Below, piece after piece: positions 163 to 11,260 of a DNA stretch of 64,000 nucleotides (its first letter is position 1; each line of letters opens with the position of its first letter). The notes under the pieces were generated by a model. That model was not told where the DNA came from, searched no databases, and saw nothing but the letters and a program-made list of their open reading frames with translations. The translations under genes were made by a program, and so were the position numbers. This DNA comes from a virus, in the IMG/VR virus record IMGVR_UViG_3300043411_000921, positions 1 through 64,000 of that record; one strand, given 5' to 3'.

Positions 163-191
163 ACTCTATCAGGCTTCTCTGATCTGGTCAA
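163..191 (-). promoter_or_regulatory. Sigma70-type promoter
   Basis: Leftward -35 TTGACC (186-191), 17-bp spacer and -10 TAGAGT (163-168). It belongs to a set of seven near-identical promoters in the first 9 kb and drives the partial gene at the left edge. Confidence 0.75.
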
Positions 192-212: not shown

Positions 213-228
213 TGGCACGATCCTTGCA
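213..228. promoter_or_regulatory. Conserved 16-bp upstream motif (sigma54-consensus-like)
   Basis: Rightward reading is TGGCACGATCCTTGCA, identical to the textbook sigma54 -24/-12 consensus (TGGCACG-N4-TTGCA). It begins 22 bp beyond the leftward -35 box. Either an activator site for the leftward promoter or a divergent sigma54-type promoter. Confidence 0.6.
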
Positions 229-260
229 GGGACAGCCGCCCCAGTTTTCTCTTTTCCCAA

Positions 261-279
261 ATCGCTCCAGGAGGCTTTT
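261..279. repeat. Transcription-unit boundary repeat
   Basis: ATCGCTCCAGGAGGCTTTT. Close relatives lie at 19092, 21431, 27688 and 34909, with looser ones near 6231 and 59787. Each sits between the end of one leftward unit and the start of the next, often inside a short inverted repeat. Confidence 0.55.
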
Positions 280-324
280 GCGGGCGCTGCAAACCTGGGA
301 AGGAACCAAGGTCGTAGAAAAGGC

Positions 325-348
325 AGAAGGCCCCGGAAGGGGCCTTCT
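325..348 (-). terminator. Rho-independent terminator
   Basis: Ten-bp GC-rich stem AGAAGGCCCC / GGGGCCTTCT with a 4-nt loop. On the leftward strand it is followed by GCCTTTTCT. A nearly identical hairpin lies at 6295-6316. It ends the unit containing the genes at 459-883. The rest of 123-458 holds a promoter, the 16-bp motif and the boundary repeat; I see no gene there. Confidence 0.75.
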
Positions 349-458
349 CGTGTCAGTAATGGGGTGTTGGTAGCTCAGTGCTCTCCGATGCAGTCACGCT
401 GCATTCCGCCTGCCAACCTTATCCAGCACTTAGACCCCAGAATAACATTAGAATTGAA

Positions 459-659
459 TCACACGAAAAACATTTCTCGTTGAAAGTGTCCAGTGTCATC
501 CCACGAACAAGCACAATGAAAAAGCAATGGTGTCTCTCGACCCGGAATGCGAACACCAAACTTTTGAGTTTCCTTACAAGCCGAAATCACAGTTCCGTAT
601 TTGTAAGCATAATCGGAAGGAGTTCGAGTAAAGGAAACCGTGTTTCCAATCATTGGCAT
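459..659 (-). CDS. Small hypothetical protein, 66 aa
   Basis: Begins MPMIGNTVSFTRTPSDYAYK about 20 nt after the stop of the preceding gene; an internal ATG at 653 is an alternative start. It holds a Cys pair (CAC) near the C terminus. No family recognised. Its position in a tight leftward pair and its unbiased composition support a real gene. Confidence 0.55.
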   Translation of the reverse strand: MPMIGNTVSFTRTPSDYAYKYGTVISACKETQKFGVRIPGRETPLLFHCACSWDDTGHFQREMFFV

Positions 660-679
660 GGGGCTGATGTACTGGAAGG

Positions 680-883
680 TCACTTCACCTTCACAACCTT
701 CCCATCCTTCACTTCGACTTCTGCATACCACTTGTGCGGCTGGGGATAATGCGGACCCTCAAGATATGCCTTCCCATTCGTGGGAGCAGTGCCAAGGCCA
801 GGGCAATAAACCCCAACTTCCTTACCAGCAGCAACAGCTTCCTTGAGGGCCTTCTTCGTCTGAAAGTTGATCGTGGAGTACAT
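680..883 (-). CDS. Small hypothetical protein, 67 aa
   Basis: Begins MYSTINFQTKKALKEAVAAG and ends in a Lys/Val strand (VEVKDGKVVKVK). The ATG at 883 is preceded by AAGGGAAGGGTAACAAAA. A TAGAGT -10-like box lies at 915-920, between the tRNA-like gene and this start, but it has no clear -35. This pattern is common among small phage proteins; no function can be assigned. Confidence 0.7.
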   Translation of the reverse strand: MYSTINFQTKKALKEAVAAGKEVGVYCPGLGTAPTNGKAYLEGPHYPQPHKWYAEVEVKDGKVVKVK

Positions 884-945
884 TTTTGTTACCCTTCCCT
901 TTCCTGATGGTCTGACTCTACCAGAAGGTACTGAAGGAATTTTGG

Positions 946-1017
946 AACAGAGATTGGGATTCGAACCCAAATTTTCCTGCTATACAGCACGGAGTCCTAC
1001 CATTAGACGATCTCTGT
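946..1017 (-). tRNA. tRNA-like gene with irregular anticodon stem (GUA candidate)
   Basis: Leftward 72-nt sequence with a perfect 7-bp acceptor stem (ACAGAGA/TCTCTGT), a D arm with the GG pair, a canonical T arm (TTGGG-TTCGAAT-CCCAA) and a 5-nt variable loop. In the standard register the anticodon loop is CTGTATA (anticodon GTA, Tyr), but only the outer two pairs of the 5-bp anticodon stem form. A slipped fold with a bulged G gives more pairs and a 6-nt loop. CCA is not encoded and position 73 is T. It may be a degenerate tRNA, a decoy, or an unusual functional tRNA. Confidence 0.7.
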
Positions 1018-1055
1018 AAAGTTGAGCGTTTATACCATGCGCTCCCCGGTATCTG

Positions 1056-1364
1056 TCAGACCGCCGTCTTGCGAGCCTGACGAGCGCGACCCTCAGCCAG
1101 GAACTCCTCGGCGTCTGCAACCGCCATGCCAAAGTCCTTCGTCCGAGCGAAGGTGAGCATCAGGCAGGCAGCCCGGCAAACCTCCGAACCAAGCTCGCCC
1201 TCGTGCTTGAGGTACGAGTTGATCGTCTCGTAAGCGTTGGTCTTGCGCTCCAGGTGCTCGGCCCAGCCCTGAGTCGTCCACTTGGACTCCGAACCACGGA
1301 GAACGTGGCGAGCGCAGCGGGCGGTGTGAAACAGAGAAGTGCGAGTCGTATTCGTGTTCGTCAT
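1056..1364 (-). CDS. Hypothetical protein, 102 aa
   Basis: Mostly helical protein beginning MTNTNTTRTSLFHTARCARH, with Cys residues in the centre (EVCRAACLM) and a basic C terminus. The ATG at 1364 has AAGGAAAAAACATC upstream, behind the promoter at 1428-1456. It lies directly before the tRNA-like gene in the same direction, so the two may be co-transcribed. No family recognised. Confidence 0.75.
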   Translation of the reverse strand: MTNTNTTRTSLFHTARCARHVLRGSESKWTTQGWAEHLERKTNAYETINSYLKHEGELGSEVCRAACLMLTFARTKDFGMAVADAEEFLAEGRARQARKTAV

Positions 1365-1427
1365 GATGTTTTTTCCTTTGTCTTTCTTTTGTTGCTGAGG
1401 GCTTCGTTGCCCTCTCTTGATGTTCTT

Positions 1428-1456
1428 ACTCTACCCGAATCCCTCGATCCCTTCAA
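1428..1456 (-). promoter_or_regulatory. Sigma70-type promoter
   Basis: Leftward TTGAAG (1451-1456), 17-bp spacer, TAGAGT (1428-1433), upstream of the 102-residue gene. Confidence 0.75.
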
Positions 1457-1477
1457 GGGGTTTCTCTCACTCAACCC

Positions 1478-1522
1478 TGGCATGGGATTTGCAAACCCAC
1501 ACCATCCGGCACGATCCTTGCA
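1478..1522. promoter_or_regulatory. Two copies of the 16-bp upstream motif
   Basis: TGGCATGGGATTTGCA at 1478-1493, starting 22 bp beyond the leftward -35, and CGGCACGATCCTTGCA at 1507-1522. Two copies occur only here and upstream of the RadA-like gene. Confidence 0.55.
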
Positions 1523-1530
1523 ACGGAATG

Positions 1531-2046
1531 TCAACTTTTGGTCTTTGCAGAGAAGTTGAAAAAAACCAGTTCGAGCCCGTGTTTCGCAAACAAAACAGAA
1601 AGCTCTTCACTAAGAGTCTTGGGAACAGCCGTTCCGACTGCAACCGCTTCCTCCTGCTTGGTGGGAGAAGGTGCTTGCGGCACCTTCTCCTCAACCAACT
1701 TCATTCCACAAGAAACTGGATCAAAACCTTTGGGAAAAACGGTTTCCTTGTTGAAAGTTGCATCTCGAAGGTTTGCACCTCGAAGGTTTGCACCTCGAAG
1801 GTTTGCACCTCGAAGGTTTGCACCTCGAAGGTTTGCACCTCGAAGGTCTGCACCCTCAAGGTCTGCATTCCGAAGGTCTGCATTCCGAAGGTCTGCACCT
1901 CGAAGGTCTGCACCCTCAAGGTCTGCATTCGAAAGGTTTGCATACGAAAGGTTTGCATCTGGAAGGCTAGCACGACGACCCTTCGGGTCGTCGTTGAGCC
2001 AGAGCTTGTGAAGATTGAGGATTTTGCTGAGTTCGGTCTGGTTCAT
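1531..2046 (-). CDS. Pentapeptide-repeat protein with FDP-GM cap
   Basis: A 171-residue protein. Residues about 28-100 are near-perfect A(D/N)LRG-type pentapeptides, which fold as a right-handed quadrilateral beta-helix. They are followed by [17 protein letters not shown], a cap shared with the genes at 4235, 5766 and 53493. The C-terminal 50 residues are a hydrophilic linker plus a hydrophobic helix. Start at 2046 (MNQTELSK) behind the promoter at 2085-2113. Known pentapeptide proteins of the Qnr/MfpA class mimic DNA and bind gyrase; whether this one does is inference. Confidence 0.85.
1758..1966. repeat. 15-nt tandem DNA repeats inside a pentapeptide gene
   Basis: About fourteen head-to-tail 15-nt units (AAGGTTTGCACCTCG and close variants), each coding one pentapeptide. 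Five adjacent units near 1770-1845 are essentially identical at DNA level, which implies recent slippage-driven expansion. Confidence 0.85.
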
Positions 2047-2084
2047 GGTTTTCTTTCTTTCTGTTCCGCCTTGGTGATAATCTG

Positions 2085-2113
2085 ACTTTATCAGGTCAGG
2101 CTGCTCAGGCCAA
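2085..2113 (-). promoter_or_regulatory. Sigma70-type promoter
   Basis: Leftward TTGGCC (2108-2113), 17-bp spacer, TAAAGT (2085-2090). Drives the pentapeptide gene ending at 1531. Confidence 0.7.
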
Positions 2114-2134
2114 CTGGTTTCCTTCGATCCCAGT

Positions 2135-2150
2135 TGGTACGAAGGTTGCA
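2135..2150. promoter_or_regulatory. 16-bp upstream motif
   Basis: TGGTACGAAGGTTGCA, 22 bp beyond the -35 box of the promoter at 2085-2113. One mismatch to the otherwise conserved TGGCA half. Confidence 0.5.
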
Positions 2151-2159
2151 AGCTAGTCA

Positions 2160-2882
2160 TCATTCTGAAACCAAGTCGTAAAATCTCAGAAACGCATCTG
2201 CGTCTTTTGTTTCTTTGGAAAAGGGAATGTAAAGTGGATCACCTGATTCGCTCAGAAAGAAATCAACCTCCAAGTCTTCCAAAGTTGCAACAAAAAAAGT
2301 AGAAGAGGAAGCTCTCATGAGCCGATAAAAGTTTTGTAGCGAAGGGTGAAACACAACTCCTTTCGTGGCCGCAGCGAGGGTGTTTCCGTTCTGGTTTCGT
2401 TGGAAAGGTTGTCCTGGGCTGAAACCCCGCTTCTCCATTTGAGAACAAATCCCAAACAAACGAGCCCAACAACCCTTTGGGCGAACACAATCCACAAAAT
2501 CAACAGAATCCGATGCAGTGACCTCAATCATTTTCGTTCCCACAAGGGAACAAGACTGAAAACCCGTTCTATCCATGATGCAGTTTGTAAAACTCGCACA
2601 TGAAAAATCGCAGTTGAACAGCCGTGCCCCTACGAAAGAAACACGGTTGAAAGCAGCATTGGAAAAGTTGCACTCGCGGAAGGTTGCCCAATCAAGAGTG
2701 CAATCCTCAAACAAAAACCCGGAAAAATCCTGGTTGGAAAGCTGGATTGGGAATCCAAGAATGTTGCGGCTGTTGGCCGTCAAAAATCGCTTCCCGTATT
2801 CGGCAAAATACCGTTCATCACCAGCAAGCATCTTCTGCCAATCAACGTTGCGAAAAACCTTTCTTGTGTCGGTCGTCACCAT
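2160..2882 (-). CDS. Degenerate pentapeptide-like protein with C-terminal beta domain
   Basis: A 240-residue protein. Residues about 48-120 carry loose pentapeptides with F/C-rich steps ([18 protein letters not shown]). The segment [13 protein letters not shown] is shared with the gene at 3666 (FTRNQKGITLAQA). The last 50 residues form a small beta domain ending LYIPFSKET, also shared with 3666. ATG at 2882 chosen because it begins [10 protein letters not shown] behind a purine-rich site; an upstream non-ATG start is possible. Confidence 0.75.
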
Positions 2883-2931
2883 GATTCCGGTACCTCTCTT
2901 TCTTGGAAACCACAAATCTTAGAGTTGTTGG

Positions 2932-3159
2932 TTAAAACTCCCTCAAGACCTCTCGGCTGTTGACGCACGCCCGAGTTGCATTGTATACGGTTCCGTCAAC
3001 ATGCTTGCCGCAACTCATGCTCGGCCTATCAACGGCCTCGATTCCAGTGGGAACGCCCTGCTCCCACTTGGCGAGTACCTGCACTGCCTCCTCCTCGTCG
3101 CTAAACGCGACCAGAGTCACCATACCGTCATACGCAGCGTGAAGCATCAGAAGGAACAT
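2932..3159 (-). CDS. Small hypothetical protein, 75 aa
   Basis: Begins MFLLMLHAAYDGMVTLVAF; the acidic centre SDEEEAVQVLAKWEQG looks like a compact alpha/beta fold, followed by a Cys-containing tail. It lies between a pentapeptide gene and the 113-residue gene in the same direction. No family recognised. Confidence 0.65.
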   Translation of the reverse strand: MFLLMLHAAYDGMVTLVAFSDEEEAVQVLAKWEQGVPTGIEAVDRPSMSCGKHVDGTVYNATRACVNSREVLREF

Positions 3160-3212
3160 TGTTTTCTCGACTTTTGTTTATAGATGAGGAAGCAAATCTG
3201 AAATTCGTTGAT

Positions 3213-3554
3213 TCAAAACTTGGGTTGAGTCGTCCACCGCTCTTCCCGATAGAGGAAAGGAAAGTCCTGCACAAATCCCTGGGACTCTCCCACTAAATGG
3301 AAACCCTGCACCTTGCCATCGGGCATACGAATGCCAACCATAACCTGCCGACCAGGGAAGTCCGCAGCCGTCACCATTCCCAGCGTCGTGGGAATGTAAC
3401 AAGTGCAATCCATGAAACGAGTCTTGGACTCAACATGAGTTGCATTCGGAGGAGGAAGCACAACCACGTTGGCACGATCCCAACGAGTCTTGATGAGATC
3501 ACCGTTGAGGGCATCAAAAAATCGAATCGTCTTGAGAAAGTTGCTCATCATCAT
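3213..3554 (-). CDS. Hypothetical protein, 113 aa
   Basis: Starts with three consecutive ATG codons (MMMSNFLKTIRFF); GAGG lies 6 nt before the first. The body is beta-rich (ADFPGRQVMVGIRMPDGKVQ) with a hydrophobic end. The first gene after the promoter at 3591-3619. The MPDGK turn resembles the C-terminal strand pair of the SH3-like arrays downstream, but the likeness is weak. Confidence 0.75.
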   Translation of the reverse strand: MMMSNFLKTIRFFDALNGDLIKTRWDRANVVVLPPPNATHVESKTRFMDCTCYIPTTLGMVTAADFPGRQVMVGIRMPDGKVQGFHLVGESQGFVQDFPFLYREERWTTQPKF

Positions 3555-3590
3555 GGCGAACCTCGTCTTGTTTGCTGTTTGGATGTTCTG

Positions 3591-3619
3591 ACTCTACCAG
3601 ATCAGGTTGCTGGAATCAA
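3591..3619 (-). promoter_or_regulatory. Sigma70-type promoter
   Basis: Leftward TTGATT (3614-3619), 17-bp spacer, TAGAGT (3591-3596). Confidence 0.75.
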
Positions 3620-3639
3620 GGAGTTGTTTGGTGGTGGGT

Positions 3640-3655
3640 TGGCACGGAAGTTGCA
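3640..3655. promoter_or_regulatory. 16-bp upstream motif
   Basis: TGGCACGGAAGTTGCA, 21 bp beyond the -35 at 3614-3619; perfect in both conserved halves. Confidence 0.6.
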
Positions 3656-3665
3656 GACGGTTGGG

Positions 3666-4214
3666 TCATCCCGGTTCGGAAACTGGGCTGTAATACTCCA
3701 AAAACTCTTTCAATGCCTTGTGATCATTTGAAAAAGGAATGTAAAACTCCTTTCCAGAATCACTCAACAGGAAATCTTTTCCTTCCTGGGGGGCGATGAG
3801 TGTAAAAGTGGAACAGGTTTCTACAAATCGCATAATGCCTGGGGCTTTGTCGATAAAATCTGCCTGCAAACCTTTGCTTTGGAGAAAATGGCGGTTGCGC
3901 GGAATCGCCTGTGCGAGAGTGATACCCTTTTGATTTCGTGTGAAAGCCTGACCGTGCTGAAAGCCCCTGAGCTTCATCGAAGAAATGGCCTTGCCAAATC
4001 CTTTGCGAAGCTCACACTCGTAAAACACCTCACTGCCAGAAAACACAACACCCTTGAATCGAGCATTACGAAACTTGCACTGTTCAAATCTCACAGACGA
4101 ATCGAAAACACAGCCATCAAACGTGTAATCCCAGAAATCTTCACCCCAAATGTGAGTGTCCTGCTTGCCGGAAAGAAACTTCTGCCACGATTTACTATCG
4201 AAAAACTTCTCCAC
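3666..4214 (-). CDS. Short pentapeptide-like protein with shared C-terminal domain
   Basis: A 182-residue protein. Residues about 30-75 hold F/C-type loose pentapeptides (FDGCVFDSSVRFEQC). The FTRNQKGITLAQA segment and a C-terminal beta domain (FLLSDSGKEFYIPFS) match the gene at 2160. Start MEKFFDSKSW at 4214. The paired domain order (short beta-helix plus tail domain) recurs in this cluster and defines a subfamily. Confidence 0.75.
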   Translation of the reverse strand: MEKFFDSKSWQKFLSGKQDTHIWGEDFWDYTFDGCVFDSSVRFEQCKFRNARFKGVVFSGSEVFYECELRKGFGKAISSMKLRGFQHGQAFTRNQKGITLAQAIPRNRHFLQSKGLQADFIDKAPGIMRFVETCSTFTLIAPQEGKDFLLSDSGKEFYIPFSNDHKALKEFLEYYSPVSEPG

Positions 4215-4234
4215 GTTGAATCTCCTTGGTTGAT

Positions 4235-4645
4235 TTATGGGTTGACGAGAATCATTCCAGCCGCAACGGGATCAAAACCAATAGGAAACACGGTCCTGGC
4301 ATCATAAAACGCAAACTTGAAGTTGAAGTTTGCTTTGCGGAGACAAGCACCAGTGAAATCGGCTCCTTGCAATAGCGCATATTGAAGGTTCGTATCCCCA
4401 AGATTGCAACCCTCAAATTCAGCATCGCGCAAATCGGCACGCTCCATGCTCACTCCAAAAAACGAAGCGCCCATGAAAAGTGCTTGCCGGAGGTCGCAAC
4501 CATTCATATACAAATCCTCCAGCCGAAGAAACTGAAAATCAGCTTGCTCTGCCTTGGGAGAATAGTTTCCGTGACAAAGCCAACAAAAATGGCTTTTGAC
4601 AATCTTCTTAAAAGTCTTCTGATCAATTGAGCTACTCATTGTCAT
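4235..4645 (-). CDS. Pentapeptide-repeat protein with FDP-GM cap
   Basis: A 136-residue protein: an N-terminal helical segment with a CWLC pair (residues about 21-24), pentapeptides at about 40-105 (ADLRDAEFEGCNLGDTNLQ), then the cap TVFPIGFDPVAAGMILV. Start MTMSSS at 4645 with AAGGGACTGA upstream; the ATG at 4639 is possible. Confidence 0.8.
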   Translation of the reverse strand: MTMSSSIDQKTFKKIVKSHFCWLCHGNYSPKAEQADFQFLRLEDLYMNGCDLRQALFMGASFFGVSMERADLRDAEFEGCNLGDTNLQYALLQGADFTGACLRKANFNFKFAFYDARTVFPIGFDPVAAGMILVNP

Positions 4646-4680
4646 TCAGTCCCTTCTGTCTGGTTGATGATCACAACCTA

Positions 4681-4965
4681 CTAGTCGTTGGTGTTGAAGA
4701 ATCGCTTGTGAAATGCAAACCCAAGAAATCCGCAAAGGAAGGCGTTTGCGACGGTTCTGTCTCCAGCGTCGAGGATGCCATACGCACACCAGTACGCAGC
4801 AACATTTCCAGCAAAAACCAGCAACGAAACAGGAAACGTGGGATAACTCGACAGCGAGCGAATGATTTCATCCCACTCATCATAAAACCACTCAGAAATC
4901 CAGAAAAAACCAAGAGCCAAAGGAACTGCAAACAACTCGTAATTGTCAATGAGAAAACTGAGCAT
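4681..4965 (-). CDS. Small membrane protein, 94 aa
   Basis: Two or three hydrophobic segments (residues about 10-27, 45-63 and 73-88). Begins MLSFLIDNYELFAVPLALGF. First of three consecutive small membrane proteins between pentapeptide genes. No family recognised; an inner-membrane location is inferred. Confidence 0.7.
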   Translation of the reverse strand: MLSFLIDNYELFAVPLALGFFWISEWFYDEWDEIIRSLSSYPTFPVSLLVFAGNVAAYWCAYGILDAGDRTVANAFLCGFLGFAFHKRFFNTND

Positions 4966-5010
4966 GGAAGTGTGAAACCTTTTTGGTGATTTGTGTTTGG
5001 ATTGCTGATT

Positions 5011-5271
5011 TCAGTGATGCTTGACGTAAGTCAGAATGAGAAGGACAACGGAGATGAGAGAGCCGAGCGAACCCGCAACTGCTACCAGCCAACCAAGAAT
5101 GAACGAGCCAACACCAAAAATTCCAACAAAATGGTTTGGATCGCCACCAAACTTGGAATCTTGCAAATAAGCCGCAGAGGCCACGCCGCCAACCAACTTG
5201 AGAATGACAGAAAGACCGATGAGAGCAAGACAAGTGACAAGACCAATGCCACTGCTGAGAAAATCCAGCAT
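5011..5271 (-). CDS. Small membrane protein, 86 aa
   Basis: MLDFLSSGIGLVTCLALIGL, then a loop (residues about 32-48), then a second membrane segment, ending in HH. Organisation and ending match its neighbour at 5327, so the two are tandem paralogs. ATG at 5271. Confidence 0.75.
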   Translation of the reverse strand: MLDFLSSGIGLVTCLALIGLSVILKLVGGVASAAYLQDSKFGGDPNHFVGIFGVGSFILGWLVAVAGSLGSLISVVLLILTYVKHH

Positions 5272-5326
5272 GATGATTTTTGTTTCTTTCTTTGGGGTCT
5301 TTGTGAGTTGGGTTGAGTTGAGGAAA

Positions 5327-5554
5327 TCAGTGATGAGAGAAGAACAAACCGATCTGGAGAATGAGAGAGATAAGACCGAGAATGCTGCCAATGCTGCTGA
5401 TCAACCAAGAAAGGAAAACAAGAACGCCGCCCGTGCTCTCCTCAACCCTGCAATCATTTACTGCCCAAACAGCGTAAAGCTGTGCGACAATGCCAACAAC
5501 GAAGAGAGCAGCACACACGAGCAGACCAAAACCAGTTGCGAGGAACTCCATCAT
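5327..5554 (-). CDS. Small membrane protein, paralog of neighbour
   Basis: MMEFLATGFGLLVCAALFVV, a short polar loop, then a second hydrophobic segment and a terminal HH as in the gene at 5011. AAAGGTGG lies upstream of the ATG at 5554; the next codon is also ATG. Likely two-pass inner-membrane protein. Confidence 0.75.
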   Translation of the reverse strand: MMEFLATGFGLLVCAALFVVGIVAQLYAVWAVNDCRVEESTGGVLVFLSWLISSIGSILGLISLILQIGLFFSHH

Positions 5555-5558
5555 TGTT

Positions 5559-5756
5559 TTATCCACCTTTCAGAAGGAACAGAGTGATTGTGAGAATGAA
5601 ACCTGCCAGGAAGATGACTTTACCACACTTCCAGGAAAACACAAGCGGTTTGTAAAGGTTGTCTCGGAAGGTATGAGTCCCAAGGTAAACCCGAGAAACA
5701 AACGAAACAAACAACCCAAACAAACCGAGAAGAACACCAAGAAGGTAATGCTGCAT
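5559..5756 (-). CDS. Small membrane protein, 65 aa
   Basis: Two membrane segments (residues about 4-20 and 45-62) around a basic loop. Begins MQHYLLGVLLGLFGLFVSFV. Four nt before the next membrane gene, so translation is probably coupled. No family recognised. Confidence 0.7.
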   Translation of the reverse strand: MQHYLLGVLLGLFGLFVSFVSRVYLGTHTFRDNLYKPLVFSWKCGKVIFLAGFILTITLFLLKGG

Positions 5757-5765
5757 TTCTTTTGG

Positions 5766-6107
5766 TTATTCTACTTCACAAGAAGAAGGAACCAAAATCA
5801 TTCCCCGCCGCTTCGGATTGAACCCTTCTGGGAACTTGGTTTTGTGATTGTAGGTTGCGCCCCACAGTTTCGACCCGTACAAATACGCACCTGTGAGGTC
5901 AGCCCCCTCAAAACGAGCTTTCATCAAGTTCGTTTTGATAATGTTGGCCTGAACCAAACAAGTATTTCGGAAATCCAACCCCTCCAGGTTTTCCATGTGT
6001 GAAGAAAAAGGACGGCCAACACTATTCTGGAGTTCGTCAATAGTCCTTACTTCTCCAAGCCAGATCAAGTGCCGGGCAATCCTTACTTCCAACTCGTTTT
6101 GGTTCAT
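5766..6107 (-). CDS. Pentapeptide-repeat protein with FDP-GM-type cap
   Basis: A 113-residue protein. The N-terminal helix (MNQNELEVRIARHLIWLGE) resembles that of the gene at 1531 ([17 protein letters not shown]). Pentapeptides at about 40-80 (ARFEGADLTGAYLYGSKLW) precede the cap TKFPEGFNPKRRGMILV. Driven by the promoter at 6131-6159. Confidence 0.8.
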   Translation of the reverse strand: MNQNELEVRIARHLIWLGEVRTIDELQNSVGRPFSSHMENLEGLDFRNTCLVQANIIKTNLMKARFEGADLTGAYLYGSKLWGATYNHKTKFPEGFNPKRRGMILVPSSCEVE

Positions 6108-6130
6108 GTCGCCTTCTTTCTGATGCTCTT

Positions 6131-6159
6131 ACCCTACCACACATTTTCCAGCCGGTCAA
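6131..6159 (-). promoter_or_regulatory. Sigma70-type promoter
   Basis: Leftward TTGACC (6154-6159), 17-bp spacer, TAGGGT (6131-6136). Confidence 0.75.
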
Positions 6160-6180
6160 AACCTTTCCTCGTGCCAGCTT

Positions 6181-6196
6181 CGGCATGGGGCTTGCA
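6181..6196. promoter_or_regulatory. 16-bp upstream motif
   Basis: CGGCATGGGGCTTGCA, 22 bp beyond the -35 at 6154-6159. Confidence 0.5.
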
Positions 6197-6294
6197 GGGA
6201 TAGCGGCCCTCGTTTGCTCGTGTCAAAAACGGTTCGAGGATGCTTTCTAGTGCCAGGAAATAAACCTGACGACCTGGGAGACGCTGGAAATGAT

Positions 6295-6316
6295 GAAGGC
6301 CCCGGAAGGGGCCTTC
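6295..6316 (-). terminator. Rho-independent terminator
   Basis: GAAGGCCCC / GGGGCCTTC stem with a GGAA/TTCC loop, nearly identical to the hairpin at 325-348. It follows the gene ending at 6341; on the leftward strand it is followed by ATCATTTCC. Confidence 0.7.
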
Positions 6317-6340
6317 TCGTGGCAGGAATGATATGGTGGG

Positions 6341-6712
6341 TTAGTTGGCGGCGGGGTTCATCACTTCAATGCTGACAGAGGTGGAGTAAAAACCATTGCT
6401 GGTTCCACACCAACGAATCGTCATGGTTCCACCATGAGAGCGAAGAGTATAAAACGTCCATTGCTGCTCGTCTCCATACTCAGAAGTTTCGCCGTTGGAA
6501 TCTTCCGACGCAGAAAGGATTTCGTGCCCAATCAGGTCTTGAGGCTCACAACCAATCACTTCCTCAACACTCACACTCTCGCAACACTCCTGATAGTGAA
6601 ACATCCGAATCACCTTTCCAGACTTCATGGTGAAACAGATATTATCACTCCCAGACTCACAACCCGTAATCGAAACAGGAACCTCACCAACAAACTCGTT
6701 CATGTTACTCAT
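6341..6712 (-). CDS. Conserved phage protein, DUF7448-like
   Basis: A 123-residue protein with hallmarks I associate with a widespread small phage family: the CCESV motif in the first half, then IGHEI, an acidic stretch, TWTFYxL-type (QWTFYTLRSHGG) and IRWCGTSNGFYSTSVS near the C terminus. Function unknown in that family. The ATG at 6712 (MSNMNEF) follows an AAAGAAGAGAAAAA stretch; the longer reading upstream is probably untranslated. Confidence 0.8.
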   Translation of the reverse strand: MSNMNEFVGEVPVSITGCESGSDNICFTMKSGKVIRMFHYQECCESVSVEEVIGCEPQDLIGHEILSASEDSNGETSEYGDEQQWTFYTLRSHGGTMTIRWCGTSNGFYSTSVSIEVMNPAAN

Positions 6713-6747
6713 TTTGTTTTTCTCTTCTTTCTTTTTGACTATCAGTG

Positions 6748-6954
6748 TCAAATGAGATTCAGGTTTGCAAACTCATTGCAGAGATAGAACTCAGAGCCCC
6801 TGGCGCTCTGCTTCTTGCAAAAGAGTTCACGATTTCCAACGTAACCAACCTCAAACACCTTCCCGGTGTTGAGAGCCGTGCGATGCTCCCAATGAATCTG
6901 GCCCAAACCAGCCATGTTCGCAATGTCCTGCATTTCCTGCTTGTTGTCGTTCAT
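6748..6954 (-). CDS. Small hypothetical protein, 68 aa
   Basis: Begins MNDNKQEMQDIANMAGLGQI; two Cys residues near the C terminus. Lies between the DUF7448-like and zinc-ribbon genes in the same direction and belongs to the unit started by the promoter at 7203-7231. Confidence 0.65.
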   Translation of the reverse strand: MNDNKQEMQDIANMAGLGQIHWEHRTALNTGKVFEVGYVGNRELFCKKQSARGSEFYLCNEFANLNLI

Positions 6955-6975
6955 GGTTGTTTGTTCCTTTTACTC

Positions 6976-7170
6976 TCAGAGAGCCATCTCGAAATACAGA
7001 TCACAAACCGAGCAAATCCAGGTGCCAGGAACCGCAATCCTTCCACACTTGGAAGTGCCATCACGACCACGAAGGGTGAACATGGTCTGGTTGATCGGCC
7101 CAACCTTCTTCTCGTCGTTGCACCCGCAAAACTTGCAAGGCTCTTGAACCGTCTTGGTGTTGGAAGTCAT
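6976..7170 (-). CDS. Zinc-ribbon protein, 64 aa
   Basis: Two Cys pairs (CKFCGC at about residue 12 and ICSVC near residue 53) bracket a beta-rich core with GKCGRIAV-like strands, the layout of a zinc ribbon. Likely a small nucleic-acid-binding or adaptor protein. ATG at 7170, first gene after the promoter at 7203-7231. Confidence 0.75.
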   Translation of the reverse strand: MTSNTKTVQEPCKFCGCNDEKKVGPINQTMFTLRGRDGTSKCGRIAVPGTWICSVCDLYFEMAL

Positions 7171-7202
7171 GATGTCTCTCCGTCTGCTCTTGGGATGGTC
7201 TG

Positions 7203-7231
7203 ACTCTATCAGACAACCCCCAGCCGTTCAA
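7203..7231 (-). promoter_or_regulatory. Sigma70-type promoter
   Basis: Leftward TTGAAC (7226-7231), 17-bp spacer, TAGAGT (7203-7208). The -35 overlaps the last codons of the upstream gene. Confidence 0.75.
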
Positions 7232-7602
7232 GGGATTTTTCGTGGAAGCCTTGGCACGACCCTTGCACGCTTCTGAAGTCGAGGACAACCATTCTTCGGA
7301 ATCATCCACCTTTTCATTCTCTTATCAGGCAAACGTGTTTCCTTGTCGTAAACAGCACGAAAAAAACATGCGCATTCCCAATACCGAACATGCCCCAAAT
7401 CAGCACCTCGCAAATCCGCACGGCTGAAATCAGAGCCATCAATTTCTAAAGCTCCAAAATTCGCGTAACGCAAATCAGCGCCGCAAAACTTGTAGTTGTC
7501 CATCATCGGGAACCGAAAGGTCGCACCAACCAAGAAACATTTGCTGAAATTGAATCCAGCCCAACGATCAAAACTAAAAACTAAACCAAACCCAGAACGC
7601 AT
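7228..7602 (-). CDS. Pentapeptide-repeat protein with altered C terminus
   Basis: A 124-residue protein. Pentapeptides at about 18-80 ([31 protein letters not shown]) lead to DKETRLPDK, an echo of the caps in sibling genes. The FDP-GM part is missing, and the reading frame instead runs through the 16-bp motif and -35 box of the next promoter. This suggests the 3' end was lost and the frame now stops in regulatory DNA. ATG at 7602. Confidence 0.7.
   Translation of the reverse strand: MRSGFGLVFSFDRWAGFNFSKCFLVGATFRFPMMDNYKFCGADLRYANFGALEIDGSDFSRADLRGADLGHVRYWECACFFRAVYDKETRLPDKRMKRWMIPKNGCPRLQKRARVVPRLPRKIP
7252..7267. promoter_or_regulatory. 16-bp upstream motif
   Basis: TGGCACGACCCTTGCA, perfect, 21 bp beyond the -35 at 7226-7231. 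It lies inside the 3' end of the gene at 7228. Confidence 0.6.
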
Positions 7603-7638
7603 TGATTTTCTTTCTTCTTTCACCCACAACATCATCCT

Positions 7639-7701
7639 CTCTCTCCCCTTTCCTAAGCAATCCAATGAAACTTTGTGGATGATTTAGGAAAGGGGAGAGA
7701 G
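7639..7701. repeat. 18-bp perfect inverted repeat
   Basis: Arms 7639-7656 and 7684-7701 (CTCTCTCCCCTTTCCTAA and its complement) separated by 27 nt. It lies in the 170-bp gap between the RadA-like gene and the pentapeptide gene, in series with a second hairpin. Could be a terminator, an RNase III site or a protein-binding site. Confidence 0.8.
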
Positions 7702-7722
7702 AAGGAGATTGGGTGGATTGAA

Positions 7723-7764
7723 TTGACTCCCTGAAAGACTATTCCTAATCCTCCAGGGAGTCAA
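7723..7764 (-). terminator. Hairpin terminator after RadA-like gene
   Basis: Eleven-bp stem TTGACTCCCTG / CAGGGAGTCAA with a 20-nt loop, starting 10 nt after the RadA-like stop codon. There is no strong T-tract, so it may be a processing or stability hairpin instead. Confidence 0.55.
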
Positions 7765-7774
7765 TCAACATCTT

Positions 7775-8818
7775 TCAGAGGAAGTTGATACCGTTGCGGG
7801 TGATCTCGTATTCAAACTCTACGCCCGCGGAGCCCCAGCGGTTCTTTGCCACATCGAGGAGACGGCAACCATAGTTCTCCGACTTCCTGTCAGTGTTCTT
7901 CCGCATGTGAAGGTGCATGTCAATGGCGTGCTTCACACCATTCGTACCAAGAAACTCTCCATCCTTGCCAACCTGCGAAACGAACATCGCAACGGTGTAA
8001 TGCTGCTTCGTCCAAGCGTTGAGGCGATAAACCGCCTCCTCCTGCTGCTTCTGATCGCCCTTCTGACGACCAGCACCCGGACGAGTGCAGCCGACAGTCT
8101 GAATCGAGTCAATGAACAGAAAGAAACCGCGCTGCTCGGCAATCAGATCAAACTTGCAGTGCTCCTCCCGCAGGAGATCCGCATAAGCCAGAATGTCGCC
8201 AATGTCAACGAAGCTGGAAAAGAAAGCCTTACAGTCAGGGGAAGAGAGGTTGCGAAACCCCTTCTGCTCTGCACGAAGCATAACCTGCTCGGGCGACTCC
8301 TCACCACCATTGAGAAGGACAACGTGGCCCTGTCCAAGCAAAGCGTTGATCATCTGAAGAGTCCAGGTGCTCTTACCGCCACCAGACATACCCGAAATCA
8401 TGGCGAGAGTGCTGGGACGGATACCATCACCAGTGAACATCGCATCCGTATGAGCACAACCAGAAGGAAGGCTAACACGCAGACGCGGATCAATCTCAAT
8501 CTCTGCGAAGGCACCAGCACGCTCCACACCAAGCGACAGACGGCTGTGGGTCGGAGCCGAAGCAACCTCAACCTGCTGCTGCGACACGGAGCCCGCAGGC
8601 CGCTGAATCTGCGTGGACATGGTGAAGGAGCGCACGGGAGGCGTCAAAGCAACCCGGACAATCTCATTGTTGACGATTGCGTAACCCGGAACATGCTTGC
8701 CGCTAAGGAGCGCGTCAATCGTGCGCTGCTGCGGACCACGCTTCATACCAGAAGTGTTCACCGTAATGATGGTGCTGGGGTTGGTGTTGCTGGGACCGTT
8801 GTCGTTGGCGTTCGTCAT
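7775..8818 (-). CDS. RadA-like RecA-superfamily ATPase
   Basis: A 347-residue protein. It has a Walker A motif (GMSGGGKST, about residue 145), the RadA-type segment GGEESPEQVMLRAEQKG, a Walker B-like LFIDSIQTVG (about residue 235), a switch region FVSQVGKDGEF and a KNRWG motif matching the KNRFG signature of bacterial RadA/Sms. RadA is a helicase-like branch-migration factor in recombination. The zinc finger and the C-terminal Lon-like domain of cellular RadA are absent, and the first 110 residues are low-complexity. A phage recombination or replication role is inferred. The -10 box lies 6 nt before the ATG. Confidence 0.85.
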   Translation of the reverse strand: MTNANDNGPSNTNPSTIITVNTSGMKRGPQQRTIDALLSGKHVPGYAIVNNEIVRVALTPPVRSFTMSTQIQRPAGSVSQQQVEVASAPTHSRLSLGVERAGAFAEIEIDPRLRVSLPSGCAHTDAMFTGDGIRPSTLAMISGMSGGGKSTWTLQMINALLGQGHVVLLNGGEESPEQVMLRAEQKGFRNLSSPDCKAFFSSFVDIGDILAYADLLREEHCKFDLIAEQRGFFLFIDSIQTVGCTRPGAGRQKGDQKQQEEAVYRLNAWTKQHYTVAMFVSQVGKDGEFLGTNGVKHAIDMHLHMRKNTDRKSENYGCRLLDVAKNRWGSAGVEFEYEITRNGINFL

Positions 8819-8824
8819 GGTCCT

Positions 8825-8853
8825 AACCTACCAGACTCCCCCAGACGGGTCAA
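8825..8853 (-). promoter_or_regulatory. Sigma70-type promoter, leaderless arrangement
   Basis: Leftward TTGACC (8848-8853), 17-bp spacer, TAGGTT (8825-8830). Only 6 nt separate the -10 from the ATG at 8818, so the transcript would begin at or next to the start codon. Confidence 0.75.
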
Positions 8854-8874
8854 AGGGTTTTTCGATCACATCCT

Positions 8875-8931
8875 TGGCATGAGAGTTGCAAACAGCTCAA
8901 GCCAACACCAAACAGTGGCACGAGCCTTGCA
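8875..8931. promoter_or_regulatory. Two copies of the 16-bp upstream motif
   Basis: TGGCATGAGAGTTGCA at 8875-8890, 22 bp beyond the -35, and TGGCACGAGCCTTGCA at 8916-8931. Confidence 0.6.
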
Positions 8932-9692: not shown

Positions 9693-10427
9693 TCAGTCGT
9701 TAGGGTTTTTGGTAACAGCCACGAAAGTTCCATGAATAAGCCAGAGTGGTAAATCTCGGTAAATCTCTCCTGTCGCTGGGCAGGTGAATGAGAAGGTTTT
9801 TGTTTTGGTGTTCACGTCAAACAACATCACCATCATTCCATTTTCAACGCCGAAATTCAATTTCGCCTTGGAGAAATCAAAGGTTTCCAGAATGAAACTG
9901 AGTAAGGCTTCGATCCTAACAGCTTTGGCGAGTGCCCCAGTAACCAAGCCCTTCTCTTTTGGATCAGAGAATCTAGCAGTGGAAATGCCATCACACTGGG
10001 AAAATGCGCAACCCGTTAGGTTCGCATCCCTGAAGTCTGCAAAACACAAGTTGGTGTTGAGAAACCCTGCTTGTGTTAGATCAGCACCTGAAAAGTTTAC
10101 TGAGTCTGCATAACAGTTTCGAAAAACATGCCCTGTCAGGTTCATCCCAGAAAAGTTTGCAAAGTTCAAACGATCCAGCAGAAACTCTTTGCTCATTTGT
10201 TGTGGTGTGTTGCGAAAATCAACACCCTCCTTGATATCTTTCCTTGGATCGTATTTCCTTGGAAACCACTTGTACCAGTTCTCGAAAATGAATCTTGTAG
10301 AGTAAACCGTCGGATAGACAACCAAAAAGAGCAACACCTTCAAAAACAACAAAATCATGGTATGTGCAACAAGAACACAAACAATGTTTTCACTCAGAAA
10401 GTTTTTGATTTGTTGTTTGGTTGGCAT
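9693..10427 (-). CDS. Membrane-anchored pentapeptide-repeat protein
   Basis: A 244-residue protein. A hydrophobic segment (residues about 15-42) suggests a single N-terminal membrane anchor. Pentapeptides at about 85-150 (LNFANFSGMNLTGHVFRNC) are followed by a beta-rich tail with FTCPATGEIYRDLPL. The only pentapeptide protein here with a clear membrane anchor. Its start overlaps the 3' end of the next gene by 34 nt. Confidence 0.75.
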   Translation of the reverse strand: MPTKQQIKNFLSENIVCVLVAHTMILLFLKVLLFLVVYPTVYSTRFIFENWYKWFPRKYDPRKDIKEGVDFRNTPQQMSKEFLLDRLNFANFSGMNLTGHVFRNCYADSVNFSGADLTQAGFLNTNLCFADFRDANLTGCAFSQCDGISTARFSDPKEKGLVTGALAKAVRIEALLSFILETFDFSKAKLNFGVENGMMVMLFDVNTKTKTFSFTCPATGEIYRDLPLWLIHGTFVAVTKNPND

Positions 10428-11260
10428 AGCGGAGGCGGCTCCTTGAGCATGGTGAGGATTCTGGAGTTGGAGAACTTTTGAGTTTTACCTGTTTCTGGGA
10501 ATAGTAGTGTAAACGTCTTCTTGTTTTTCTCAACCACAACACCAAACGGAATTTGTTCTTCTGGGAGGCAGGAAAGGATTGCCGAACTCTGAGGGTTATA
10601 TTTCTCTGAAGGTTTATGGGCAACCTTCAACAATTTTCCAACCGCAAGATCAACTGGTTTTGGCGGGATGCTCTTTGAATCCCACGGAACATCTAGTTTG
10701 TATTGTCCTGTTGTTTCATTGGGAAAGAAGGGAAACGCAGCCCCAAACAGTGACGTTTGACTTAAATCACAATCAACAAACCAGCGTTTTTCAGAGTATC
10801 TTTGCGGGAAAGCTCCAACGAACCGAGCATTATCAAACTTGCATCTTTCGAAGTAGAAGCAACCTTCCATGCTCTTCACAAATTTGCAGCCACTAAAGTC
10901 ACAATCAATGAACCTGCAATTTCCAGGCGCCATAGACAACCAAAATTCACACCCTCTGAAATCTGCTTTTCTGATAACAATTTCTCCGGTTTTGGATAAC
11001 GCCATCTCCTCAAAGTTTTCAAGTGCGCGATACAAAACGTCTTGGCTGCGTGGATAAGCAAACCCAGCAGTTGGATTCTTTGGATCTTCAAACAGCTTTT
11101 TGTATCCAATGATCCAGTTGTTTAGTTTGAGTTGATGCCCTTTGTTCCCGTTGGTCTTCAACCAAAGCAAATGGGAAAGAAGGAACTTCCTGAGTTGCCG
11201 CTTCTCGTATGGAAGATGGCGAAGGGGTTTGTTGAGTGGATCAGCTTTGGGATGAATCAT
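10394..11260 (-). CDS. Pentapeptide-like protein with SH3-like tail
   Basis: A 288-residue protein: a basic helical N-terminal region, a short F/C pentapeptide block (about 110-180: CRFIDCDFSGCKFVKSMEG), then a tail where VGKLLKVAHKP and FTLLFPETGKTQKF match the N- and C-terminal strands of the SH3-like array proteins. It therefore links the two expanded families. Start at 11260; the next 40 nt upstream hold a GC-rich hairpin. Confidence 0.7.
   Translation of the reverse strand: MIHPKADPLNKPLRHLPYEKRQLRKFLLSHLLWLKTNGNKGHQLKLNNWIIGYKKLFEDPKNPTAGFAYPRSQDVLYRALENFEEMALSKTGEIVIRKADFRGCEFWLSMAPGNCRFIDCDFSGCKFVKSMEGCFYFERCKFDNARFVGAFPQRYSEKRWFVDCDLSQTSLFGAAFPFFPNETTGQYKLDVPWDSKSIPPKPVDLAVGKLLKVAHKPSEKYNPQSSAILSCLPEEQIPFGVVVEKNKKTFTLLFPETGKTQKFSNSRILTMLKEPPPLCQPNNKSKTF

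Follow-up and report, generated by a model that had tools for sequence, protein, structure and literature searches.

The window analysed here is a stretch of 64,000 nucleotides that forms the left end of the virus record IMGVR_UViG_3300043411_000921 (241,399 bp). Its genes all run leftward, and no rightward genes are evident. A tRNA-like gene lies on the minus strand at 943–1017 (Rfam tRNA match of 43 bits, with an odd anticodon call), and pentapeptide-repeat proteins form a series at 1531–6107 and 10394–11260, several of them directly behind the composite promoters listed in Table 1. Near-identical hairpins, GAAGGCCCCTTCCGGGGCCTTC, are found at 325–348 and 6297–6320, upstream of two of these promoters, and are probably leftward terminators. 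A motif scan of the first 9 kb identified nine copies of the sequence TGGCAYG-N4-TTGCA, all on the plus strand, six of them exact and three with one mismatch. They include every position given in an earlier note on this sequence, which had described the consensus as perfect, a description that holds for the six exact copies but not for those at 1507, 6181 and 2135. The note had also reported the motif nowhere else in the window; however, a further exact copy is present on the minus strand at 1116–1131, within the ORF 1056–1364 and away from any promoter, and the motif also occurs in other phages.

Table 1. Sigma54-type elements and leftward sigma70-type promoters in the first 9 kb of the window. 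Spacing is the gap to the adjacent element.
Feature	Positions	Strand	Sequence	E. coli matrix score	Spacing (bp)	Remarks
Element	213..228	+	TGGCACGATCCTTGCA	20.5		exact
Promoter	163..191	-	TTGACC-N17-TAGAGT		21	
Element	1478..1493	+	TGGCATGGGATTTGCA	18.4		exact
Second tandem element	1507..1522	+	CGGCACGATCCTTGCA	16.3	13 (from 1478)	one mismatch (CGGCA)
Promoter	1428..1456	-	TTGAAG-N17-TAGAGT		21	serves ORF 1056-1364
Element	2135..2150	+	TGGTACGAAGGTTGCA	14.6		one mismatch (TGGTA)
Promoter	2085..2113	-	TTGGCC-N17-TAAAGT		21	serves pentapeptide-repeat ORF
Element	3640..3655	+	TGGCACGGAAGTTGCA	18.4		exact
Promoter	3591..3619	-	TTGATT-N17-TAGAGT		20	serves ORF 3213-3554
Element	6181..6196	+	CGGCATGGGGCTTGCA	11.3 (weakest)		one mismatch (CGGCA)
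Promoter	6131..6159	-	TTGACC-N17-TAGGGT		21	serves pentapeptide-repeat ORF 5766-6107
Element	7252..7267	+	TGGCACGACCCTTGCA	19.3		exact
Promoter	7203..7231	-	TTGAAC-N17-TAGAGT		20	serves ORF 6976-7170
Element	8875..8890	+	TGGCATGAGAGTTGCA	18.4		exact
Second tandem element	8916..8931	+	TGGCACGAGCCTTGCA	18.0	25 (from 8875)	exact
Promoter	8825..8853	-	TTGACC-N17-TAGGTT		21	ORF 7775-8818 (KaiC/RadA-type ATPase)

Seven leftward promoters accompany the elements, and two of the seven have a second motif copy farther out. When the gap is measured from the TGG end of the motif to the initial T of the −35 hexamer of the leftward promoter, the spacing is constant at all seven promoters, as claimed earlier, at 20–21 bp rather than 21–22 bp. 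The polarity of the asymmetric site is also constant, with the −24 side facing the −35 box and the centre of the motif at about −64 relative to the leftward promoter. Read leftward, all seven units conform to TGCAA-N4-YRTRCC(A/G), 20–21 bp, TTGnnn, 17 bp, TARRKT. The −10 box is TAGAGT or TAAAGT in five promoters and TAGGGT or TAGGTT in the other two, and an extended TG is present in most.

In a scan of the full record with an independent E. coli sigma54 matrix, the first 9 kb gave nine sites with a score of at least 14 and the other 232 kb only four, and these four, the best matches there, all lie inside coding frames. At a score of 16 or more, the first 9 kb holds seven sites as compared with a mean of 0.04 in first-order Markov sequences modelled on the same 9 kb. 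Four −35/−10 promoters of the same type that lack the motif were identified elsewhere by a promoter matrix scan of the record (140416, 140704, 166088 and 187956); the motif is therefore something added to the promoter rather than a by-product of it. Because the record begins at the first site, the series may extend past that edge of the record. Neither DNA comparison nor the KaiC-like protein revealed close relatives, and the motif cluster was not found in TerL relatives. It is missing from the nearest large relative (G007), which is fairly close, with a TerL 73% identical; it was therefore gained or lost within the group and is dispensable in some members. A 141-kb relative, IMGVR_UViG_3300033273_000658, has 43 protein families in common with this phage, and in that record a second repeat, TTTACATAACTC, lies some 8 bp away on the −24 side of most sigma54-type sites (stretches L409 1243–8400 and L408 666–860).

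Sigma54 is known for binding at promoters and remaining there until an activator acts. The motif of the window has the −24 GG and −12 GC, the fixed spacing and the known flanking base preferences of sigma54 sites. The reference set consisted of 50 intergenic E. coli sites from sigma54 ChIP-seq (PMC4591121), and the viral set of 236 variable copies in viral contigs that lie near exact sites and have up to three differences. The two sets correlate with r = 0.97 over 17 positions, a value to be read with the selection of the viral copies by nearness and limited mismatches in mind, which partly imposes the conserved columns and leaves the kind of change in each column free. Over the five positions that the search pattern did not constrain at all, the correlation is 0.63. 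The agreement includes C/T at position 6, G/A at position 7 and A/T at the last base; in copies one or two bases off exact, GG and GC are kept in 99–100%, position 6 is C or T, and the last base is A or T. On the E. coli matrix, seven of the nine sites of the window exceed the median score of the E. coli sites, whose own 90th percentile is 18.0. This identity strongly supports the sigma54-type −24/−12 assignment made in the earlier note. In the reading preferred here, the element would be recognised by host sigma54 (RpoN) and not by a phage protein.

The sigma54 DNA-binding domain PF04552 was not found in six virus records, neither an RpoN box nor an enhancer-binding ATPase was found among phage proteins, and over eight motif-bearing phage genomes no protein family was present in more than four. 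Because the motif-bearing phages have no common protein family, sigma54 domain or RpoN box, a host factor is indicated; a conserved host protein would be the simplest candidate, with sigma54 as the one that has the matching specificity. The Pseudomonas hosts of the isolate examples carry rpoN. A phage-encoded sigma54 homologue was rejected on the lack of the domain and the box. A CRP/FNR-like palindrome, TGNNA-N6-TNNCA, was rejected because the asymmetry is constant; a class I activator site of this kind agrees with the phasing but not with an asymmetric element of constant polarity.

Convergent motif pairs occur in 67 stretches of IMG/VR and tandem pairs in at least 120, where the chance expectation for such pairs is estimated at well under one. 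The IMG/VR contigs are predicted viruses, and the isolates are limited to phiMK, PAK_P4, EM, Amme-3, phiK7A1 and phiPMW (Pseudomonas). The convergent pattern was matched four times in 84,980 genomes of bacteria and archaea, each time as a near-perfect hairpin (full or three-of-four spacer complementarity), whereas full-complementarity hairpins account for only 2 of 81 viral convergent pairs; terminator hairpins as the source of the pairs fit all of the former and only these two of the latter. Exact copies are held by all 15 motif-bearing phage records, about 80 in total, and chance clustering was rejected, as backwards control patterns gave no matches in these records. In most multi-copy records the copies are grouped in one or two regions, and other phages carry arrays of as many as 25 near-consensus sites, regardless of orientation, with the spacing of neighbouring sites limited to 9–13 bp for tandem, 1–5 bp for convergent, and 5–10 and 16–18 bp for divergent arrangements. 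Most promoters close to a cluster are directed away from it (226 and 166 versus 16 and 28, with a promoter common to several sites counted repeatedly), and the sites therefore sit in upstream regulatory space. In one genome (G028) the sites lie downstream of sigma70 −10 boxes, so the upstream position is not used by every phage. A scan for the composite unit that required TAGAGT gave no matches; a looser scan gave mostly single chance matches but also a genome (G017) with 21 copies. The 354-kb record IMGVR_UViG_3300028735_000003 contains 21 copies with at most one mismatch, the majority packed into about 4 kb at 77.4–81.5 kb (L175 7450–11500), and many are head-to-head, adjoining a repeated element, GTTTCATGATGGGA.

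The position of the site relative to sigma70 promoters was examined across IMG/VR by scanning for the antisense motif 4–34 bp from TTGACA-N16..18-TANNNT, which gave 46 stretches and 39 distinct promoters. The gaps group at 10–11, 19–23 and 29–34 bp, with lone outliers at 7 and 17 bp, and the classes of 12–16 and 24–28 bp are empty; the window gap of 20–21 bp belongs to the second class. Thirty-six of the 39 gaps fall within one half-turn of the helix (Rayleigh p about 6e-8). Strict sequence clustering left 29–32 independent cases with R of 0.62–0.65, a value reached by none of 20,000 simulations, and the strictest non-coding subset gave p = 0.0006 (n = 21). The motif turned round, a built-in control, gave 50 matches in the same scan and no phase (17 of 36 within the half-turn), and the difference in phasing between the two orientations has a permutation p of 0.0009. 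Within phage families the gap shifts by about a full turn: it is 10–11 bp in phiMK, Amme-3 and phiK7A1 versus 21 bp in phage EM, where the change from 11 to 21 bp amounts to one helical turn and the sigma54 elements are kept. The fixed spacing in the window and the helical phasing across unrelated phages strongly support the earlier view that the motif is part of the promoter unit.

The specificity, fixed spacing, helical phasing and spread over unrelated phages are computational results, whereas sigma54 binding during infection and the sign of any effect are inferred. In the reading that we somewhat prefer, host sigma54 holoenzyme would be docked back-to-back with the phage sigma70 promoter and would modulate that promoter, withdraw sigma54 from the host, or both. 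Host sigma54 polymerase, or sigma54 itself, would bind the element as a stable closed complex that stays silent without an enhancer-binding ATPase. The antisense site, two helical turns behind the −35 box and always on the same helical face, would give it a seat back-to-back with the sigma70 polymerase, from which it might recruit, gate or shield the phage promoter and would also be taken away from host promoters. Docking of a silent polymerase is favoured because the closed complexes of sigma54 polymerase are stable and cannot initiate until an ATPase acts, because most of the sites in E. coli are silent, and because sigma54 has repressed overlapping promoters (PMC4591121). It is weakened by the head-to-head pairs with gaps of 1–5 bp, which could hardly seat two holoenzymes, and by the relative without the cluster. 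We know of no case in which an upstream sigma54 polymerase activates a sigma70 promoter. A broader and more tentative proposal, for which we would not quite claim an even chance, is that unrelated virulent phages have a common cis-element, in which sigma54 docking sites, singly or in arrays, placed whole turns behind sigma70 promoters would make the silent sigma54 polymerase a phage transcription factor as well as taking it from the host.

Withdrawal of sigma54 could also be the whole function, with the sites acting as pure decoys that titrate host sigma54 polymerase and silence the host sigma54 regulon. The early promoters would then be merely where the non-coding space is, and the phasing would only let both polymerases fit. 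The long arrays in any orientation, the high scores on the E. coli matrix and the near-absence of such pairs from bacterial chromosomes agree with this, and decoy as well as structural roles have been proposed for the non-canonical sigma54 sites of E. coli (PMC4591121). Orientation-specific phasing and a one-turn indel are, however, not expected of a sponge, and this phage carries no more than nine sites, every one of them linked to a promoter; we consider a pure decoy unlikely, although it keeps some weight. The earlier note had offered either an activator site or a divergent sigma54 promoter, and an upstream regulatory site fits better than the latter. Divergent promoters, producing rightward antisense or small RNAs with the help of a host enhancer-binding protein, would explain the near-perfect −24/−12 geometry; phage YuA reportedly requires host sigma54 for its development (PMC5053324) and has sense −24/−12 promoters annotated as active, and the RNA-seq-based ncRNA as16 of PAK_P4 begins next to a sigma54-type pair. 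Against this, the genes run leftward, nothing is conserved to the right of the site, no enhancer-binding protein was found in the phage, the head-to-head and dense tandem arrays elsewhere cannot all be productive promoters, and the phasing concerns the sigma70 promoter, which lies on the opposite side; this makes divergent transcription improbable and less likely than docking. To much the same degree we doubt a different activator of sigma54-like specificity working in the classical class I manner at about −64 (−54 and −74 in other phages). The centre position and phasing are typical of activators and the close packing of the arrays would suit a small protein, but a second protein with the base preferences of sigma54 at 17 positions (r = 0.97) would be needed, no protein family is common to the phages, and an asymmetric site is ill-suited to a symmetric dimer.

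In the literature covered, which leaves out most subscription journals and preprints, the arrangement in dozens of unrelated phages suggests an undescribed way to exploit or sequester sigma54; arrays of sigma54 sites may already be described in those sources. If phages repeatedly set the best sigma54 sites behind sigma70 promoters in helical register, a silent holoenzyme may act as a regulator, or be sponged up by phage DNA, and this would be a new kind of conflict between phage and host transcription, directly testable with the Pseudomonas phages PAK_P4, phiMK, EM and phiPMW, which are already in culture. Among known systems, Pseudomonas phage YuA (NC_010116) is similar in that lytic development is reportedly tied to host sigma54 and −24/−12 elements are present in the genome (PMC5053324). 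Its annotated −24/−12 promoters are, in contrast, sense promoters in the structural region; neither exact consensus copies nor an array occur in its genome, and none of its sigma70 promoters has an antisense site behind it. The non-canonical (intragenic or antisense) sigma54 sites of E. coli have the same base matrix as the phage sites and are bound yet mostly silent, as is predicted for the latter, but they are scattered and largely intragenic (PMC4591121), whereas the phage sites lie between genes, form clusters and keep helical phase with sigma70 promoters. Occlusion at overlapping sigma54 and sigma70 promoters (Zafar 2014, as cited in PMC4591121) is a precedent for sigma54 polymerase affecting another promoter without transcribing; there the sites overlap, whereas the phage elements are separate, with gaps of 10, 20 or 30 bp. 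In the Pakpunavirus PAK_P4, the annotated start of as16 precedes the sigma70 promoter and lies at the sigma54-type pair (KC862300 55650–55850; L360 1119–1319), the sigma54 nature of which is not mentioned in the record annotations examined. The likeness to the window is that convergent pairs of this type lie 10–11 or 21 bp behind a TTGAC-type promoter; the PAK_P4 region differs in being a pair instead of a single site and in driving an annotated ncRNA, and pairs of the as16 type are conserved in phages of P. aeruginosa, P. putida and P. syringae.
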